DNA from: Anaerolineae bacterium
Lineage (GTDB): Bacteria > Chloroflexota > Anaerolineae > Aggregatilineales > J027
Reading direction: 5' to 3'
Assembly: GCA_021463865.1 (NCBI GenBank)
Contig: JAJTXY010000037.1
Coordinates: 1-40,631 of the forward strand
DNA length: 40,631 nucleotides
Shown: piece by piece, positions 18,892 through 32,730 of the stretch
Position numbering within the stretch: position 1 is the stretch's first letter
Layout: the number at the start of each line of letters is the position of its first letter
Position numbers and translations under genes: made by a program
Notes under the pieces: model-generated
The model's input: the letters and a program-made list of their open reading frames with translations, nothing else
Database searches by the model: none
Told to the model about the DNA's origin: nothing

Positions 18892-19347
18892 TCAATGGTC
18901 TTGAAGATGGGTGCGGAGGGCTTCGAGGGCAAGGAGATAACTACGCCAGCCAAAACCACAAATCTGCCCGATGCAGACCGGAGCGATAAGGGAGGTATGG
19001 CGGAATGGCTCACGCGCATGGATATTGGACAAATGACATTCGACGGTTGGTAGCCCTACTCCCGAAATAGCGTCCCGCAGGGCCACCGATGTATGGGTAT
19101 AACCGCCGGGGTTGATAATTAGGCCCGCCGCCCATCCCCGTGCATCTTGAACCCAATCAATCAACTGCCCTTCGTGATTTGACTGGTGGATTTGCAGCGA
19201 GATGGCATGAGGCGCAGCGGCATCGTGCAAAGTGGCGTTGATGTGATCCAGTGTGATGTTGCCGTACACCTCCGGTTCGCGTGTGCCTAATAAATTGAGG
19301 TTGGGGCCATGCAGCACCAAAAACGTCATCGGTTGAATGTCAGTCAT
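18892..19347 (-). CDS. aroQ: type II 3-dehydroquinate dehydratase
   Basis: Third shikimate step: 3-dehydroquinate to 3-dehydroshikimate. It is 151 residues from the ATG at 19347, the usual size for the dodecameric type II enzyme. The active-site parts are present: [16 protein letters not shown] with its catalytic Tyr, [15 protein letters not shown], the [14 protein letters not shown] loop with His, Asn and Arg. I chose 19347 because it overlaps the aroKB stop by 8 bp and has GGAG 10 nt upstream. An ATG at 19329 is possible. It is the last gene of the aroE unit. Confidence 0.96.
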
Positions 19348-20941
19348 CACGCAGCATCTCCAAAATTTCGAGTACGGTTTCACGCGGCACATCCGACACC
19401 ACCGCCGGATTACCGATACCTTTTAAAATGACAAAATGCGAACGACCACCCCGCCATTTTTTATCGAGTTTCATCGCTTCCCATAGGGCTTCGGGGGATA
19501 GCCCTTGATAGCGGATAGGCAACCCCGCCGATTTCACTTTATGTTCAATGAAGCCGACATCATCCCCATCGAGATAGCCCAATTTTTGCGAGAGCAGTGC
19601 CGCGCCGACCAATCCGACCCCCACCGCGAAGCCATGCCGCCACGCATAGCCGCTGACCTGTTCTATGGCATGGGCAAAGGTGTGGCCCAGATTTAAATGG
19701 GCGCGTTCACCTTGTTCATAGGGGTCACGCTGAACAATATCAATTTTGACCTGCACGGCGGCTTTGATTTTTTCGACCAGCGGCATGTTCTCATCTAACA
19801 GGACGGGGTTGGCTAAAAGGCCGTGTTTAATGACCTCCGCCATGCCCGCGCTCATTTCTTCAGGGGGGAGCGTTTTGAGAACTTCGGGATCAATAATCAC
19901 TAAATCGGGTTGTTTGAAGGCTCCAACTAAATTTTTGCCCTGTGGAATATCCACCCCGACCTTGCCCCCAACTGAGGAATCCACCATCGCCAAGAGGGTC
20001 GTTGGGATTTGCACAGATCTGACGCCGCGCATGTAGGTCGCCGCCGCAAAACCGACAGTATCGCCTACTACCCCACCACCAAGCGCAATGACCACACCCA
20101 TTCGATCTAGGCCGAGTCGGGCAAATTCATCGTAGAGAAATTTGACGGTATCGAGATTTTTATATTCTTCTCCGGCGGGGATTGTGATGAGGCCATCCCA
20201 TCGGTCATAGGGCTGAAAGGTTTCATGCACAAGTTTTTTCCCTATCAAAGGGGCTGTATTGGAATCTGCCACTGTCACGACATGTTTGCCATCATAAATC
20301 TCAGCCAAGTCATAGGCCATCAATAGAATCGGTAATTTGTCAACCAACCCATTCTCAATATGCACGGGGTAACTGCCAGATGGTGACTCGACAAGCTGGC
20401 GGGTAGATTTCAACCAATCATCAAACTTCCAATGGCTAATCAGGTAATGATTCACCAGCTTATCAATATCTACCCAAGTTGTTTCAAGGATGTATGGAAA
20501 AGTCTTATAGACGACTTCACGCTGTCTAAACAATTCTTCAATCCGCTCTTTTTGGTTATCACCTTGCAAAAGGGGTCTATCGGTTGCCTCTTTAAGGCGT
20601 TGATAAATAATATCGGGCTGTGCGGTAAGGCACACAAGCGTATCTTTTTCAAATACCCGGCGATTTTCAGCATTTAGCAGCGCTCCCCCACCCGTCGCCA
20701 CAACCATCACACGCGGGTCAGCAGCGACTTCGGCACACACGGCGGATTCCCATGCGCGGAAACCTGCCTCACCATATTTTTCAAAAATTTCGGGGATGCT
20801 GAGGCCGACTTTTTGCACGATGACATCATCAAGGTCAACAAAGGGCACGCCGACTTTTTCCGCGACGAGCTTGCCCAAGGTGGTTTTGCCTGTCCCCATG
20901 AAGCCAGTTAAGACGAGTTTGCGTTGGGGGGTATCAGACAT
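19340..20941 (-). CDS. aroKB: fused shikimate kinase - 3-dehydroquinate synthase
   Basis: A bifunctional 533-residue protein covering two non-consecutive steps. Residues 1-170 are shikimate kinase: the P-loop GFMGTGKTT at 13-21, the metal/substrate acids Asp36 and Asp38-39, substrate Arg62, GGGALLN at 84-90, and the lid Arg122. Residues about 190-533 are 3-dehydroquinate synthase: GGGVVGD at 288-294, the long [19 protein letters not shown] segment, and the metal ligands Glu369, His420 and His436. Both domains look active. The ATG at 20941 overlaps the aroC stop by 8 bp, so synthesis is coupled. The fusion fixes the two activities at equal dose. Confidence 0.96.
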
Positions 20942-22109
20942 AACCGAACCGCCAAGTCGTATTGTGCATCGCAAAATCGCTCAATTCGCCGCGTTTGAGC
21001 ATTTCAAAGCGGGGACGCATTTCCGCCAGCGAATCGCCTCCCAATTTTTCGAGCAGGGCATCCGCCAGCACAATCGCCACCATCGCCTCAATCACGGGGA
21101 CGGCACGGGGCGTGGCGCAAAAATCACTGCGTTCATAGGTCGTGCCTTCGGGTTCACCTGTCGCCAAATTGACCGAAGCCAATGGGGTCAGGGTCGTACT
21201 GATCGGCTTCATGGCAGCACGGACAATCAAGGGTTCGCCTGTCGTCATGCCGCCTTCCAAACCCCCGGAGCGATTGGTTTGGCGGGTCAGCTTGCCGTTT
21301 TGACCGAGCAAAATCTGGTCATGAACTTGCGTGCCGGGTTTGCGCGTATTGGCAAAGGCTGTGCCGATTTCCGCACCCTTGATGCTTTGGATGCTGCACA
21401 CTGCCCCAACCAAACGACCACTCAGGCGGCGGTCATAATGGACGTGTGAGCCTAAGCCGGGGGGCAAATGCAGGGCGATGACCTCAATTACCCCACCCAG
21501 CGTATCCTTGTCAATTTTGCATTGACGGATGGCCTCCCGGATGCCTTCCGAAGCAATGGGGTCAGGGCAGCGCACATCCGATTCCTCGGCGGCGGCAAAT
21601 CGGGCAGGATAGTCCGGCGGTTCAGGCATATCCGCGACCACCCCACCGATCTCGGTGACATAGCCGCCAATCACCACGCCAAATTCCCCCAAGAGGTGTT
21701 TGCAAATCGCCCCGACAGCTACCCGCACGGCGGTCTCCCGCGCACTAGAACGTTCCAGCGCAATCCGTAAATCATCATAGCCATATTTGAGCGTGCCTGT
21801 CAGATCGGCATGACCCGGACGCGGTGTGGTCATGGGAGGGATGTCTTTTTCCGCCCAATTTTTCCAATCGCGGTTTTCGATAATTAGGCTAATAGGGCCA
21901 CCTGTGGTTTTGCCCGCCATCACCCCGCCGGTGATGCGTACCTCATCGCGTTCGATCTGCATTCTGCCGCCGCTGCCATACCCTTGCTGACGACGGGCGA
22001 GATCGAGATTGAGTTGTTCTTGGGTCAGGGATAACCCGGCGGGCATCCCCTCCAAAATTCCGGTTAAAAGCGGGCCGTGACTCTCCCCCGCTGTCAAAAA
22101 TCGAATCAT
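20934..22109 (-). CDS. aroC: chorismate synthase
   Basis: The final common step: EPSP to chorismate, needing reduced FMN. It is 391 residues, the normal length for the larger bacterial form. Seen: TAGESHG at 6-12, RRQQGYGSGGRM near 39-50, DEVRITGGVMAGKTTGGPIS, RPGHADLTG, and the basic SSARETAVRVAVGA segment, together with the C-terminal GGLEGGMTTGEPL. Its ATG overlaps the pentapeptide gene stop by 4 bp (ATGA) and its stop overlaps aroKB by 8 bp, so it is translationally linked on both sides. Confidence 0.97.
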   Translation of the reverse strand: MIRFLTAGESHGPLLTGILEGMPAGLSLTQEQLNLDLARRQQGYGSGGRMQIERDEVRITGGVMAGKTTGGPISLIIENRDWKNWAEKDIPPMTTPRPGHADLTGTLKYGYDDLRIALERSSARETAVRVAVGAICKHLLGEFGVVIGGYVTEIGGVVADMPEPPDYPARFAAAEESDVRCPDPIASEGIREAIRQCKIDKDTLGGVIEVIALHLPPGLGSHVHYDRRLSGRLVGAVCSIQSIKGAEIGTAFANTRKPGTQVHDQILLGQNGKLTRQTNRSGGLEGGMTTGEPLIVRAAMKPISTTLTPLASVNLATGEPEGTTYERSDFCATPRAVPVIEAMVAIVLADALLEKLGGDSLAEMRPRFEMLKRGELSDFAMHNTTWRFGYV

Positions 22110-26056: not shown

Positions 26057-27382
26057 CTAATCAGGCAGCCATTCCACCCCTGCGCCTAATGATTGCATAG
26101 TTTCCACAAAACCGGGGAACGAATCGTGGGCGCAGCGGGCATCTTTGACAATCGTTTCCCCCTCGGCCAGCAAACCCGCCACTGTCAGGCTCATGGCAAC
26201 CCGATGATCGTCATGCCCATCCACCACCGCGCCCTTTAGCTGCTGGGGGCCTTCAATCACAAACCCGTCGGGTCGTTCTTCAATCACCGCACCGAGTTTG
26301 CGTAATTCGGCGGCCATGACCGCGATGCGATCTGTTTCTTTGACCCGCAGTTCTCGCGCCTCGCTGACTTCCGTGACACCGTTGGCAAGAAGCGCCGCAA
26401 CCATCAAAATCGGGAATTCATCAATCATACGGACGACCAAATCACCTTTGATGCTCGTCCCGTGCAGGCGGGTGGAACGCACCAACAAATCGGCGACAGG
26501 TTCACCGCCTTCTACATGCACATTGGATTGATGCACCGTTGCGCCCATCATGACGAGGGCATCCAAAATGCCGGTGCGAGTATCGTTGACCCCTACCCTT
26601 TCAATGACCACCTCGGCGCCATCTACCAATAAACCTGCGACTAGGGGGAACGCAGCAGAAGAAATATCAGCGGGGATCGTCCAATTGAGGGGATGCAGAC
26701 GCTCAACCGGGGTAATCGTCACGCGGTTGCCCGCTTTGCGAATATCCGCCCCCATTGCCCGCAACATGCCTTCGGTGTGGTCACGCGCCGGGCCGGGTTC
26801 AACAATCGTGGTCGGGCCATCGGCAAACAATCCCGCCAGCAACAAACAGCTTTTAACTTGGGCACTGGCGACAGGCATTTCATAGGTAATACCCTTGAGA
26901 AATGAACCGCCAAAATGCAGCGGGGCACGCCCTTCATTTTCCTCCACATTCGCCCCCATCAAGCGCAAGGGTTCAGTAATGCGTTTCATCGGACGGCGGC
27001 GCAGTTGTTCGCTACCATCCAACACGCTCGGAAAGGGTTGGCCCGCCATCACGCCTGCCAGCAATCGAATCCCCGTGCCCGCGTTCACACAATCGAGAGG
27101 TTGGGTTGGCGGTTGCAAACCGTGTAAGCCGCCTCCATGTACGGTCAGAGTCGTGTCGTCATGGCGATCCACCTGCACCCCCAAAGCGCGAATGCAACCG
27201 AGGGTCGCCAGTGTGTCACCGGCAGGTAAAAATCCACGAATTTCACTGATACCATCCGCCAGTGCGCCAAAAATCAGCGCCCGATGCGAAATGGATTTAT
27301 CCCCCGGTACACGAATCACCCCGCGCAGGGATTGACCGGGGTGGACACGCACGCGGTTTGAAGTTTGGTTATGGGTGGTCAT
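26057..27382 (-). CDS. aroA: EPSP synthase (3-phosphoshikimate 1-carboxyvinyltransferase)
   Basis: Joins PEP to shikimate-3-phosphate. It is 441 residues, the normal length, with PGDKSISHR at 26-34, NAGTGIRLLAG near 88-98, DGSEQLRRRPM, the central AQVKSCLLLAGL, DHTEGMLRAMGA, the catalytic DEFPILMVAALLA, and LRVKETDR. The position after NAGTGIR that is Pro in the enterobacterial enzyme is Leu here. Its ATG overlaps the tyrA stop by 4 bp (ATGA). It is the last gene of the aroH unit and is convergent with the DUF3160 gene, with no visible terminator in the 3-bp gap. Confidence 0.97.
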   Translation of the reverse strand: MTTHNQTSNRVRVHPGQSLRGVIRVPGDKSISHRALIFGALADGISEIRGFLPAGDTLATLGCIRALGVQVDRHDDTTLTVHGGGLHGLQPPTQPLDCVNAGTGIRLLAGVMAGQPFPSVLDGSEQLRRRPMKRITEPLRLMGANVEENEGRAPLHFGGSFLKGITYEMPVASAQVKSCLLLAGLFADGPTTIVEPGPARDHTEGMLRAMGADIRKAGNRVTITPVERLHPLNWTIPADISSAAFPLVAGLLVDGAEVVIERVGVNDTRTGILDALVMMGATVHQSNVHVEGGEPVADLLVRSTRLHGTSIKGDLVVRMIDEFPILMVAALLANGVTEVSEARELRVKETDRIAVMAAELRKLGAVIEERPDGFVIEGPQQLKGAVVDGHDDHRVAMSLTVAGLLAEGETIVKDARCAHDSFPGFVETMQSLGAGVEWLPD

Positions 27383-28254
27383 GAGATCGGGCGTTCTCCA
27401 TAGGTCTTGGTGTAAAGGCGGCGGGCCTCGACTACCCGCGCAAGTTCTTCACGTAGTTCATCAGGATGGTCAAAAAGGGCATCGAGGGTATCGAGGTGAT
27501 TGCGGAGGCGGGCCAAGAGGGGACGGATTTGGGCGGCGTTGGTCGTAAACATGCCCGTAATCATGTTTTCTTCGGTACGAGCCAAACGGGTCGCGCCGTC
27601 AAAACCACCTGCCGCCAACTGAAACAAGGCTTCATCTTCGGCTGAGGCTTCCATCGCCAAGCGCATTAGGGCGAAACTCAGCACATGGGGTAAATGGCTG
27701 GTCAACGCGGTGAGCGCATCGTGGCGATACCTATCCATCCACAGCGGGCTTGCGCCAATCGCCGTCACCAGATTTTCAGCAATGGCACGGGTGGCAGGAG
27801 TGGTCAACACCGTTTCACAGAGGACAAAACGTGCCCCTTTATATAGTGTGGGGATGGCATTGCGATAGCCATTCTCCGCCAAACCACACATTGGATGCCC
27901 TCCAATGGCCGCAACGGTCTTGGGCAGGGTATCGAGGGTGTCACAGATACGGCCTTTGGTACTGCCGATGTCCATGACCAACGCGCCATTTTTTAATTGA
28001 CCAGTGGCGCAAAACTGGTGAATCAATTGGGGAATACGGTCAGAGGGAACGGCTAAAATCACAATATCAGCCTGATCTAGCCCTCCAACCCTATCAATCA
28101 CCCCTGATTGTAAAGCCGATTCTAAATTGGCAGGGTTAGCATCTTGGGCGGTGATCCATTGAACATGACCACGCAGGGCCATCGCCAGCGACCCACCCAT
28201 CAATCCTAAGCCAATAATATGGACCGTAAACCCATCAATTGCGTTATCAGACAT
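27379..28254 (-). CDS. tyrA: prephenate (or arogenate) dehydrogenase
   Basis: Oxidative decarboxylation toward tyrosine. It is 291 residues and monofunctional: a Rossmann loop GLGLMGGS at 15-22, AVPSDRIP, the prephenate-site IGGHPMCGLAENGY, and a helical dimerisation half with LTSHLPHVLSFALM. There is no fused chorismate mutase and no C-terminal ACT domain, so Tyr feedback through ACT is not expected. Substrate preference between prephenate and arogenate cannot be read from the sequence. GAGG lies about 7 nt before the ATG at 28254. The 58-bp gap to aroF holds copy 2 of a palindromic element. Confidence 0.93.
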   Translation of the reverse strand: MSDNAIDGFTVHIIGLGLMGGSLAMALRGHVQWITAQDANPANLESALQSGVIDRVGGLDQADIVILAVPSDRIPQLIHQFCATGQLKNGALVMDIGSTKGRICDTLDTLPKTVAAIGGHPMCGLAENGYRNAIPTLYKGARFVLCETVLTTPATRAIAENLVTAIGASPLWMDRYRHDALTALTSHLPHVLSFALMRLAMEASAEDEALFQLAAGGFDGATRLARTEENMITGMFTTNAAQIRPLLARLRNHLDTLDALFDHPDELREELARVVEARRLYTKTYGERPIS

Positions 28255-28312: not shown

Positions 28313-29359
28313 TTAGTGTGATGGAACAGGGGCGGGAATCGGTTCATGTACCCGCTTGCCGACCACTTCCGCCAGACGCCCGGCTTTTAGCACCAATTGC
28401 GCAAATTTATCAGGCCGCAGTGATTGGCGACCATCCGAGGCCGCATGGTCGGGGTCTTGATGCACTTCCAAAATGAGGCCATCCGCACCTGCCGCGACTG
28501 CCGCTAGAGATATGCTCTCGACATATTCCCATTTACCCGTGCCGTGACTGGGGTCAGCGATGACAGGCAGGTGTGACAAGTGCTTGAGGACAGGAATAGC
28601 GTTGATGTCGAAGGTGTTGCGGGTAGCGGTTTCATAGGTACGGATGCCGCGTTCGCAGAGCATAACCCGCATGTTGCCATGACTAAGAATGTATTCAGCA
28701 GCCATGAGCAGTTCTTCAATGGTGCTGCTCATGCCACGCTTGAGTAAAACGGGGAATTGGCTCTCCCCGACGGCGTTGAGCAGGGCGTAATTTTGCATAT
28801 TACGAGCGCCGATTTGCAGCACATCGGCATATTGGCAGACCAGTGGCACAAGCGCGGGGTCCATCACCTCGGTGACAATGGGCAGTCCCGTTTGCTCACG
28901 CGCCTCAGCCAAATAGCGTAGCCCTTCTTCCCCCAATCCTTGGAAGGCGTAGGGGGAGGTACGCGGTTTGAACGCCCCACCCCGCAAGGCTGTCGCCCCG
29001 GCTTCGCGCACGATATGAGCGATTTCAATAATTTCGTTGCGGCCTTCAACGGAGCATGGGCCAGCGATCACCGCCAAATCCGGGCCACCGACGTTGATGC
29101 CATTCAATGGCACTTGGGTGTCATCGGGGTGATATTCGCGGCTGGCAATTTTGTAGGGGTGGGAGACGGGGATGACATCCTGAACACCAGACATGACACC
29201 AAGTTGGTCGCGGTCAACCGGACGACCTCGCCCAATGATGCCGATAATGGTGCGTTCTTTGCCCTCCGAAAGGTGGACTTCATAACCCATCGCACGGATA
29301 CGGGCAATGACTTCAGAGATTTCACGGGCAGTTGCGGCACTAGACATGACTACGATCAT
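28313..29359 (-). CDS. aroF: DAHP synthase, type I-beta, with N-terminal regulatory-like domain
   Basis: First committed step: PEP plus erythrose-4-phosphate to DAHP. It is 348 residues. Residues 1-68 form a ferredoxin-like domain of the type fused to Thermotoga-like I-beta enzymes, which there mediates Tyr/Phe inhibition. The barrel follows, with the metal Cys102 in [26 protein letters not shown] at 125-142, the [10 protein letters not shown] loop, CERGIRTYE, and the metal residues in [17 protein letters not shown]. The ATG at 29359 has GGGAG about 7 nt upstream. It is second in the unit after aroH. Control seems double: the leader attenuator on RNA and possibly allostery through the N-domain. 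Confidence 0.95.
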
Positions 29360-29419: not shown

Positions 29420-29869
29420 CTAACTTTTGGCGGTCAGTTCCTCCGCCAGCACTTCGGTTAAATCTTTCATTTCAATCGAACGGTCTGGCCGTAAATGTTT
29501 CGCCCCGTTGATATAGACATGGTGGATTTCGTGAGCGGAAAGGGTCGTGTTCCACATAATCAAAATCCGCAAACACATTTTGAGGCCATGTGGTACAGCC
29601 ATTTCGTGAGCGCACATGAGGGCCGCATCGTGCCAACCCAACTGTCGCGCTGCCACCGCCGGATATTCGGCATTTAAATCCATCGTCGTCGTAAAAATCA
29701 CGCTGGCAACATCCTCCGGCACGATGCCATTATGCTTAATCATCAAAACTAGTAGTTCGCGGGTCGCCTCCAAAATGGCTTCGCGGGTATTGTCTTCGAC
29801 GGTGGTCGCGCCGCGAATCCCCCGACAAATTTTGGGCTGCCACGCAGGTTCGGTTGGTGTACTGGTCAT
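29420..29869 (-). CDS. aroH: monofunctional chorismate mutase, AroH class
   Basis: Chorismate to prephenate, the gateway to Tyr and Phe. The 149 residues match the trimeric Bacillus-type AroH fold, not the helical AroQ fold. Seen: RGIRGATTVEDNT at about 16-28, TTTMDLNAEYPAVAAR, the active-site Glu in CAHEMAVP, Arg in KMCLRILI, and the late Tyr and Arg in HVYINGAKHLRPD. It is the first structural gene behind the aromatic leader. An AAGGAG lies 15 nt before the ATG, a long spacing, but no nearer start codon exists in frame. Confidence 0.95.
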   Translation of the reverse strand: MTSTPTEPAWQPKICRGIRGATTVEDNTREAILEATRELLVLMIKHNGIVPEDVASVIFTTTMDLNAEYPAVAARQLGWHDAALMCAHEMAVPHGLKMCLRILIMWNTTLSAHEIHHVYINGAKHLRPDRSIEMKDLTEVLAEELTAKS

Positions 29870-29958
29870 GGGTGTCTGTTTTATCTCCTTGTGGTTGCTG
29901 ACTCATCATTTCCCACAAAGTTTTTTGTGACCTAGCCACGAGAACAGACCTAAAAACG

Positions 29959-29995
29959 AAAAAGGCCCGGAGTCCCTCTTGGGAACCCCGCGCCT
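29959..29995 (-). terminator. attenuator terminator in the aroH leader
   Basis: On the minus strand 29995-29982 pairs with 29976-29963: 13 of 14 positions pair, with two G-T pairs and one mismatch, loop C-AAGA. The T5 run follows directly at 29963-29959. It stands about 90 nt before aroH, inside its transcript, so it must act as an attenuator and not as an end-of-operon terminator. Confidence 0.85.
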
Positions 29996-30031
29996 GTGGT
30001 CGCTGCTCTCGTTTGTAGCGGCTAATCGTCG

Positions 30032-30154
30032 CTACGTGCGTTGTTCCCGTTGCTCCGTGCTGTTCCCAAAGTAATAATAAAAGTAAAAGCTGACAGTCGC
30101 ATCGTAGGACGCGCTGTAAGCAGTGGGAATCGAGAACGAACGGGTATTGGTCAC
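30032..30154 (-). CDS. aromatic leader peptide (attenuation peptide) of the aroH unit
   Basis: A 40-codon ORF that starts with GTG at 30154 and stops with TAG at 30034-30032. AAGGG lies 7 nt before the GTG, and a good promoter ends 33 nt before it. Residues 23-29 are Phe-Tyr-Phe-Tyr-Tyr-Tyr-Phe, seven aromatic codons in a row (30088-30068). Tyr13, Tyr17 and Phe7 are also aromatic. No tryptophan is present. The C-terminal part is polar (NSTEQREQRT). The peptide itself probably has no function. Its translation reports the supply of charged tRNA-Phe and tRNA-Tyr to the terminator downstream. A longer overlapping frame over the same DNA lacks these features and runs through the terminator and the aroH start. 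Confidence 0.82.
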   Translation of the reverse strand: MTNTRSFSIPTAYSASYDATVSFYFYYYFGNSTEQREQRT

Positions 30155-30186
30155 AATAAAACCCTTGTGTTTTGGTTAGTGATAGC

Positions 30187-30216
30187 AGCATAACACGGAC
30201 ACCCATGATTCGTCAA
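30187..30216 (-). promoter_or_regulatory. promoter of the aroH-aroF-tyrA-aroA unit
   Basis: TTGACG at 30216-30211, an 18-bp spacer, and TATGCT at 30192-30187. The predicted transcript start near 30180 places the leader ribosome site about 14 nt into the RNA. It lies about 95 bp beyond the trpG stop, so the aroH unit need not depend on read-through from trpEG. Confidence 0.7.
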
Positions 30217-30310
30217 CTCATTCGAAATTTGTTTTTTTGTCCAACCTGCACAAAACCTCTACCCCCACCCAACGCTTTGAGCGAGAGGGTATCAAGTGAG
30301 AGTAGGCAAA

Positions 30311-30877
30311 TTACAAACGGCCCTCAAGGAAATTCTGCAAAATCCGCACGCCGTAGGTCGTCAAAATGCTTTCGGGGTGGAATTGCACACCAACTACCGG
30401 ATACTCTTTGTGGCGTAGGGCCATGACTTCGCCCTCCTCGGTGAAAGCGGTCACACTCAGGCAATCCGGCAGGGGTTCTTCAACAATCAAGCTGTGATAG
30501 CGGGTGGCGACAAACGGACTCGGCACACCCGTAAACAACTTCTGATTGCGATGGTAAATCTGCGAGGTTTTGCCGTGCATCAAGCGTGGCGCACGAATCA
30601 CCCGCCCGCCATAGGCCTGACCGATACACTGATGGCCCAAACAGACACCAAAAATCGGGATATGCTGGCCCAATTGACTGATGACATCCAGCGAAATCCC
30701 CCCATCGTTGGGATCACCGGGGCCGGGTGAAATGACAATCCGGCTGGGATTGAGAGCCGATACTTCTTGTAGGGTCAGGGCGTCATTGCGGACGACCTTT
30801 AAATCCGCGCCGAGGCTACCGAGCAATTGCACGAGGTTATAGGTAAAACTATCGTAGTTATCAATGACCAAAATCAT
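30311..30877 (-). CDS. trpG: anthranilate synthase glutamine amidotransferase subunit
   Basis: A 188-residue class I glutamine amidotransferase that supplies ammonia to TrpE. The catalytic triad is Cys79 in GVCLGHQ, His167 and Glu169 in QFHPES. The N-terminal [12 protein letters not shown] and the PGPGDP loop are typical. It could also serve PabB in folate synthesis, as in other bacteria with one shared subunit. GGGGAG lies 7 nt before the ATG, and trpE ends 20 bp upstream. No intrinsic terminator is clear after its stop. The trpDCFBA genes are not in the window. Confidence 0.94.
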
Positions 30878-32405: not shown

Positions 32406-32444
32406 AAAAAGAGCCTCCTCAATCGTCAGGGCGAGAGAAGGCTC
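32406..32444 (-). terminator. T-box-controlled terminator before trpE
   Basis: On the minus strand GAGCCTTCTC (32444-32435) pairs with GAGGAGGCTC (32420-32411), 10 bp with one G-T pair, followed by T5 at 32410-32406. Its left arm overlaps the end of the conserved T-box sequence, so antiterminator and terminator exclude each other. Confidence 0.85.
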
Positions 32445-32730
32445 CCGTGGTGCCACCCGGCTTAGACGAGCGCCAGAACGCTGTGTCTCACTTAAATTCA
32501 GGTGCGGGCAGAGTTTTGGGAAATGCTCTGGTACTGCCGAGACCCTTCGCCTTGATAACGGTGGCTGTTCCGATGGGGGCTACTGATGATATTTTCGCCC
32601 GCACAACTCCCCGGCCCATTCAGCCCGCGCCTCTGTACCGCCTTCACACCCAACTGGCGGCTCTCTGCACATCGCGTTCGGACATACTCTTCCGGTTCAA
32701 CGTCTTTGGAAAATTGCTATTCAGTTGATA
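32406..32730 (-). promoter_or_regulatory. T-box riboswitch, tRNA-Trp type, controlling trpEG
   Basis: The conserved T-box GGGTGGCACCACGG lies at 32458-32445, with the bulge TGGC at 32455-32452. TGGC would pair with GCCA, the 3' end expected of tRNA-Trp with discriminator G. Stem I features are upstream: an AGAGAG segment followed by a CCGCC...GGCGG hairpin near 32665-32638. A CTGAATGGGCC segment lies on the 3' side with TGG at 32618-32616 as the apparent specifier codon. Uncharged tRNA-Trp should favour the antiterminator and so trpE expression. Exact stem boundaries are not resolved by eye. Confidence 0.88.

Follow-up and report, generated by a model that had tools for sequence, protein, structure and literature searches.

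Based on its sequence and on comparison with relatives, the DNA ahead of the aroH-aroF-tyrA-aroA operon in the window (the whole 40,631-nucleotide stretch of Anaerolineae DNA that was analysed) most probably encodes a transcription attenuator of the classical, ribosome-mediated type for the aromatic pathway, a reading to which we assign a probability of about 0.9. A preliminary description of the same DNA had proposed this attenuator, and the proposal is supported by the leaders and terminators of relatives and by a partner-swap test of the pairing strands. In the mechanism that we propose, RNA polymerase would transcribe the leader with a ribosome following it. When Phe-tRNA and Tyr-tRNA (and in many relatives also Trp-tRNA) are charged, the ribosome would reach the stop codon and cover a pairing segment near the end of the leader frame (strand 2), the terminator would form and transcription would end before aroH. 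When one of the charged tRNAs is short, the ribosome would stall in a run of aromatic codons and leave strand 2 free, which would then pair with the 5' arm of the terminator before the 3' arm is made, and the polymerase would enter aroH-aroF-tyrA-aroA. At the level of sequence comparison, backing is found for the terminator and the aromatic run, for the spacing of the parts, for a strand 2 that fits strand 3 of its own locus better than that of other loci and, in two of the families, for a putative 1:2 hairpin with compensating changes; we infer that the leader frame is translated, that ribosomes stall in it and that the switch responds to each of the amino acids.

The leader, its RNA and the operon in the window

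All features of the proposed switch are encoded on the minus strand. A sigma-70-like promoter (30187-30216), with TTGACG at 30216-30211, an 18-nt spacer and TATGCT at 30192-30187, matches the consensus at 9 of 12 positions, and shuffled sequences held a mean of 0.4 sites of this quality. The promoter is followed by AAGGG (30162-30166), the likely ribosome-binding site of the leader ORF, and by the leader ORF itself (30032-30154), which starts with GTG at 30154 and comprises 40 codons and a TAG stop codon (30034-30032); the leaders of relatives are found at the same place. The control codons Phe-Tyr-Phe-Tyr-Tyr-Tyr-Phe (30068-30088) contain Phe and Tyr only and are the single occurrence of seven consecutive TTY or TAY codons in the 4,915,330-base assembly, and relatives also carry an aromatic run at this position. 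Both promoter hexamers, the AAGGG, the GTG and the aromatic run are identical in all five genomes of the window's genus. The frame, the run, the promoter and the AAGGG were all read where the preliminary description had placed them. A leader frame with a start codon and a likely ribosome-binding site is present in the DNA, as in an attenuator. A second GGGAAC was observed immediately 3' of the aromatic run (30067-30062, minus strand) in all five genus genomes; it is absent from three loci (L004, L012 and L021) of two other genera of the family.

The intrinsic terminator (29959-29995) is present in all five genus genomes. Its hairpin starts 36 nt past the leader stop and upstream of aroH, with a stem that was located by scan at 29990-29968, is lengthened by GGC/GCC to about 29994-29964 and is followed by TTTTT. 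The terminator alone is not unusual (one terminator-like site was found in 721 bases, compared with a mean of 1.0 in shuffles), but its combination with the leader features is. The 5' arm of the terminator, strand 3 (29991-29981, GCGGGGTTCCC), can pair with the antiterminator half, strand 2 (30038-30048, GGGAACAACGC), which lies in the last leader codons, 19 nt past the run, and is identical in all five genus genomes. The two strands form nine pairs with one AA/GG mismatch, GGGAAC of the late leader fitting GUUCCC of the terminator 5' arm in the window's genus, and the duplex calculation gave -18.9 kcal/mol with one additional pair; both the terminator and this pairing thus exist as the preliminary description had them. 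Between the antiterminator strands, a small hairpin (GUAGCG/CGCUAC, 30015-30035) spans the stop codon and is predicted when the nascent RNA of each of the five genus leaders is folded, with a stem identical in the five genomes and a loop that is altered in one. Additionally, UUCCC at 30125-30129 (TTCCC in all five genus genomes) is complementary to GGGAA of strand 2 on the far side of the run, and as a guess from these 5 bp it might serve as strand 1 in the window's genus.

The leader RNA folded better than shuffled sequences, with a z of -4.7 and none of 200 shuffles being as good. When the RNA covered by a stalled ribosome was removed and the terminator 3' arm (strand 4) was still unmade, strand 2 paired with strand 3 in the folds of all five genus leaders. 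With the 3' arm included, the terminator was energetically favoured over the antiterminator despite a stalled ribosome, in the folds of the window leader and of four congeners. As the terminator wins once its 3' arm exists, whether a ribosome is stalled or not, the choice must fall during transcription.

The gene identities agree with those given in the preliminary description, based on NCBIfam and, for tyrA, on the best model below its cut-off. The first gene, aroH (29420-29869), encodes a monofunctional AroH-class chorismate mutase (TIGR01796, 133.9 bits, cut-off 82), not the E. coli DAHP synthase of the same name. It is followed by aroF (28313-29359; DAHP synthase, above the NCBIfam cut-off), tyrA (27379-28254; prephenate dehydrogenase, best NCBIfam match of 182.7 bits, under its cut-off of 295) and aroA (26057-27382; EPSP synthase, TIGR01356, 399.6 bits, cut-off 287.25), which overlaps the end of tyrA by 4 nt. 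A search of the assembly, which is 97% complete, gave one match to PF00793 and no match to PF01474; a second DAHP synthase gene was thus not found, and the switch, if working, precedes the single one. Elsewhere in the window, one frame (19340-20974, minus strand) holds both shikimate kinase and 3-dehydroquinate synthase domains, and chorismate synthase and shikimate dehydrogenase genes are located nearby.

The neighbouring operon, trpE-trpG, is preceded by a T-box leader (32424-32709, minus strand; RF00230, 93.4 bits, gathering threshold 93), the specifier region of which was read from the alignment as GAA-UGG, i.e. Trp. A T-box was found in 15 of 20 trpE loci of relatives that were tested against Rfam, and the Trp branch (trpE) appears to be read differently, by a T-box. 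At the site of the aroH leader, a T-box was rejected, as RF00230 gave no match in 29880-30260 at E up to 5, and so were the known leader families of Rfam 15, none of which matched the window leader. Similarly, 20 leader loci compared with Rfam 15 gave no leader family; their one match was an unrelated cobalamin riboswitch (RF00174; L087 4256-4436, minus strand), located on the strand opposite aroH.

Leaders before aroH in relatives

AroH was located by HMM in 35 of the 41 nearest genomes, 139 of 154 genomes of the order and 131 of 251 genomes of a phylum sample, with the window's own genome counted each time. The DNA before aroH was read in 258 loci, of which 249 were distinct, and a leader was scored when at least five of nine codons within 420 nt were Phe, Tyr or Trp and a terminator of -10 kcal/mol or lower was found at most 80 nt from the stop. 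This rule was passed by 59 of 68 order loci (the 48 best-scoring and 20 hand-chosen loci from the 139 AroH genomes, all scored by this one rule), by 42 of 80 loci from a contig search and by 39 of 110 phylum-sample loci, the latter read out of 131 and the omitted ones being mostly from families already read or short of upstream DNA. A further 40 loci of family f2 were printed only and stand outside the rule scoring; labels of family and genus (such as f1 and g55) are tool-assigned. When the contig-search loci were sorted manually into phyla by their record titles, 41 of 45 from Chloroflexota passed the rule, as did none of 28 from Planctomycetota and one of 7 others.

At least six of nine codons were aromatic in 123 of the 249 distinct 420-nt stretches before aroH, from Chloroflexota and others, whereas the reverse strand reached this in 3 of 249 stretches and shuffled sequences in 0.6%; together with the uniqueness of the window's run in its genome, this excludes a chance aromatic run. 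A stem of -10 kcal/mol or lower within 80 nt of the stop was found in 131 of 140 distinct leaders. Three or four of nine codons are aromatic in the nine order loci that failed the rule (L005, L007, L117, L118, L125, L127, L167, L174 and L177), and by eye a weak leader with a terminator remains in L117, L125, L127, L174 and L177. Eight phylum-sample loci had a run with no terminator under the rule: a stem is present and the U-tract poor in L145, L149 and L183, the stem is weak in L224, no terminator was found in L234, L236 and L246, and in L219 the scan picked an apparent PheA C terminus as the leader, a leader-like frame being located further down. The leaders of L234, L236 and L246 read FASFYFYAY or FAGFYFYAY and have no U-tract terminator. 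In the folds of all three, CCUCC pairs with the GGAGG that precedes aroH, which points to a switch acting on translation. Among phylum-sample loci, the motif MGY.NP, which we take to be TrpA-like, was found within 700 nt upstream of aroH in 26 of 63 loci without a run compared with 0 of 47 with a run, so aroH seems to be part of another operon in those 26 loci.

Leaders were also found in records named Roseiflexus, Oscillochloris and Viridilinea (L043, L062, L063, L071 and L074) and in the loci L184, L244 and L141, which we take to be those of Chloroflexus aurantiacus, Herpetosiphon aurantiacus and a Roseiflexus. In six Chloroflexus-like leaders, seven of the nine codon columns contain aromatic codons only; of the nine, two differ between leaders by synonymous changes alone and one alternates between Phe and Tyr. 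The check in relatives that had been put forward with the attenuator was passed, since the aromatic run is conserved, other codons are variable and the terminator and pairing strand are present. In Anaerolineae and Chloroflexia, aroH thus appears to be preceded as a rule by a very similar device. As it is found in both classes, it was probably present in their common ancestor, and the leaders may have a single origin.

Pairing between the leader and the terminator

Duplexes and spacing were determined for 131 of the 140 distinct leaders. The median gap from the last aromatic codon to strand 2 is 19 nt (10-90%: 12-26), and strand 2 ends a median of 9 nt short of the end of the stop codon. Given the ribosome footprint size that we assume, a stalled ribosome would leave strand 2 free and a finishing one would cover it. 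Taken singly, 46 of 131 duplexes reached p 0.05 in a shuffle test, and the cognate terminator ranked best in 9 of 131 leaders, the weak ranking being partly due to the likeness of terminators within a family. Because of these weak single-locus results, a swap test on diverged representatives was added. For 71 representatives with strand 2 sequences less than 60% alike, the duplexes of strand 2 with its cognate strand 3 had a mean of -16.2 kcal/mol compared with -13.1 kcal/mol for swapped partners (z -10.8, p 5e-5). The controls showed no preference for the own partner, neither for the segment before the run (p 0.28, 71 loci) nor for the linker after the stop (p 1.0, 67 loci). The pairing partners differ between groups: in Herpetosiphon UUGUCGCU of the late leader fits AGCGACAA of the terminator 5' arm and loop, and in Chloroflexales CUGGUCGCUUCGC fits GCGUGAAGCACCAG of the same part.

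Covariation was studied in alignments of 24 of the first 30 loci (A1), of 27 of the 38 located f2 leaders (A2) and of 14 of 23 chosen Chloroflexia loci (A3; eight were unmatched by the terminator pattern and L066 was omitted). In Chloroflexales and in family f2, a putative hairpin directly after the run occupies the front of strand 2. The 1:2 and 3:4 helices, which were chosen on the same sequences on which they were tested, gave 14 doubly changed cells in each of the two alignments, a number reached by none of 500 shuffles. In Chloroflexales, the terminator has 11 of these cells and the 1:2 hairpin three, which all fall on a single pair; the corresponding numbers for f2 are eight and six. The compensating changes of the 1:2 hairpin thus concern one pair in Chloroflexales and two in f2, where 10 of 27 leaders cannot form one of the 1:2 pairs, and the window's genus has just the 5-bp candidate. 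Other measures in Chloroflexales were within the range of shuffles (pairs changed on both sides, 96/500; pair types, 500/500). The antiterminator columns covary weakly in Chloroflexales, where 49 of 500 shuffles matched the score, and show no covariation in f2 (331 of 500), most of their variation being one-sided. The covarying arms anticipated in the preliminary description were therefore found in the terminator and, at one or two pairs, in the 1:2 hairpin, but not, or only weakly, in the antiterminator, the support for which comes from the swap test rather than from column covariation.

Control residues, alternative readings and known systems

The 9-codon windows of 131 leaders contain 415 Tyr, 399 Phe and 49 Trp codons, the latter in 42 leaders. 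The presence of aroF behind the leader was not associated with Trp codons (40 of 42 leaders with Trp and 80 of 89 without; Fisher p 0.50), and the contigs of the two Trp leaders without aroF end 0.2 and 1.1 kb after aroH. The median Tyr share of the run was 0.75 in 29 loci without aroF in the operon and 0.59 in 20 loci with it (Mann-Whitney p 0.019), in a set of related genomes in which 22 of the 29 aroF-less loci are of one genus, L167 probably has no leader, and L118 and the f2 loci with unread downstream genes were left out. Pooled Phe and Tyr counts did not differ by operon content (Fisher p 0.19). In one f2 genus, all 18 loci read are aroH-tyrA-aroA, aroF being gone from the operon, and aroF is on a different contig from aroH in 29 of 30 genomes (L300-L328). 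In both cases scanned, the relocated aroF forms a fusion with a type II chorismate mutase domain (PF01817), and the aroH leader run of this genus is short and Tyr-rich. Before the relocated aroF, no aromatic run above five of nine codons was found in 28 loci with at least 400 nt (one had five, the rest four or fewer), in a stretch that includes part of the fused domain. In four other loci (L042, L065, L087 and L105), a prephenate dehydratase gene (PF00800) is located between aroH and aroF, behind the leader, so that a gene of the Phe branch joins the operon in some lineages.

These counts bear on which residues are read. It is unlikely that the translated attenuator answers to a single residue, Phe, with the Tyr codons being passive. 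This is what the passages of PMC11802643 on Corynebacterium glutamicum aroR describe, where the attenuator has a Phe-Tyr-Phe leader and is unaffected by Tyr availability. In the leaders studied here, however, Tyr is as frequent as Phe, and the run leans towards Tyr where the operon is without aroF, by the locus-wise test though not by the pooled one. We find it very improbable that a protein or small molecule acts on the leader RNA with no sensing of translation rate and the ORF being incidental. The RNA is well structured, as the z of -4.7 indicates, but the aromatic identity is conserved while the codons vary, such runs are rare on the reverse strand and in shuffles, and the leader matches no Rfam family even at E up to 5. 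A small functional peptide, e.g. a membrane peptide, would be consistent with the hydrophobicity of the aromatic stretch, which is 5 to 9 residues long; it is less probable still, because the sequence beyond the run differs among families and the last codons follow the need for RNA pairing. Finally, trpG, whose end is at 30311, lies immediately upstream of the leader, and one terminator-like site is expected by chance in 721 bases, but a terminator that serves trpE-trpG only, with the remainder due to chance, can be dismissed since it is located after the promoter and leader and since leader and terminator recur in relatives in which trpE-trpG was not found just upstream.

Taken together, we consider it fairly probable that the attenuator belongs to a clade-wide family at aroH, in which one leader weighs two or three aromatic amino acids, trpE is read separately by a T-box, and the control codons change gradually with the gene content of the operon, the run being shorter and rich in Tyr where aroF was lost from the operon and joined to a second chorismate mutase, with one GC-rich family perhaps being translational. 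The family would add a ribosome-mediated attenuator to a phylum for which we found none described, as a likely regulator of the entry step of the pathway in mostly uncultured bacteria. The leaders before aroH form a natural series with two, three or nearly one kind of control residue, which makes the integration of several tRNAs by one leader testable through swaps. Two unlike tRNA-reading switches would moreover adjoin on neighbouring aromatic operons. No account of an aromatic attenuator in Chloroflexota was found in searches of an open-access library, and papers under subscription could contain a prior prediction. A survey based on Rfam motifs took in five Chloroflexi genomes, its attenuator models being limited to His, Leu, Thr and Trp, and its authors considered a gamma-proteobacterial origin of amino-acid attenuators possible (PMC3766115). 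Another paper named Chloroflexi among the groups with too few genomes to judge a peak in leader-gene distance (PMC4833913).

Several known systems share part of this design. A T-box (RF00230), as found before trpE next door, also senses tRNA charging and decides on termination. It differs in that it binds the tRNA directly and involves no translation. In enterobacteria, the ilvGMEDA and thr leaders each read, through their control codons, two or three amino acids made by a common pathway; the pathways are the branched-chain or Thr/Ile ones, and the likeness is drawn with no claim of homology. The attenuators of E. coli pheL and trpL work through 1:2, 2:3 and 3:4 helices. In pheL-pheA and trpL-trpEDCBA, as outlined in PMC11802643, control codons and the position of the ribosome are likewise decisive, but each reads one amino acid and controls genes of its branch only, and their Rfam families do not match here. 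The proposed uORFC-13-1 motif of Acholeplasma, described in the part of PMC8632094 concerned with it from 24 sequences of Acholeplasma and unplaced sequences only, also has a uORF with Phe codons and an adjacent intrinsic terminator before aroF; it differs in having at least one Phe residue and another conserved substructure. The closest described case, by analogy, appears to be aroR of C. glutamicum, a Phe-Tyr-Phe leader before aroF (PMC11802643, PMC4046766, in the sections that treat it). There, as in the window, an aromatic leader peptide and an attenuator stand ahead of an operon with a DAHP synthase gene, and the leader is described as answering to Phe, with Tyr availability having no effect on transcription (PMC11802643). 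The earlier remark that no described equivalent is known in Chloroflexota needs amending in that an equivalent in outline exists in C. glutamicum. Likened by description only, aroR has three control codons and belongs to another phylum, whereas 5-9 of 9 codons are aromatic here, and the descriptions of aroR, in those sections, mention no Trp codons, which are present in 42 of the 131 leaders studied here. The mechanism itself belongs to a class already described for E. coli and Actinobacteria; what looks new is a family that spans a clade and uses two or three aromatic control residues.
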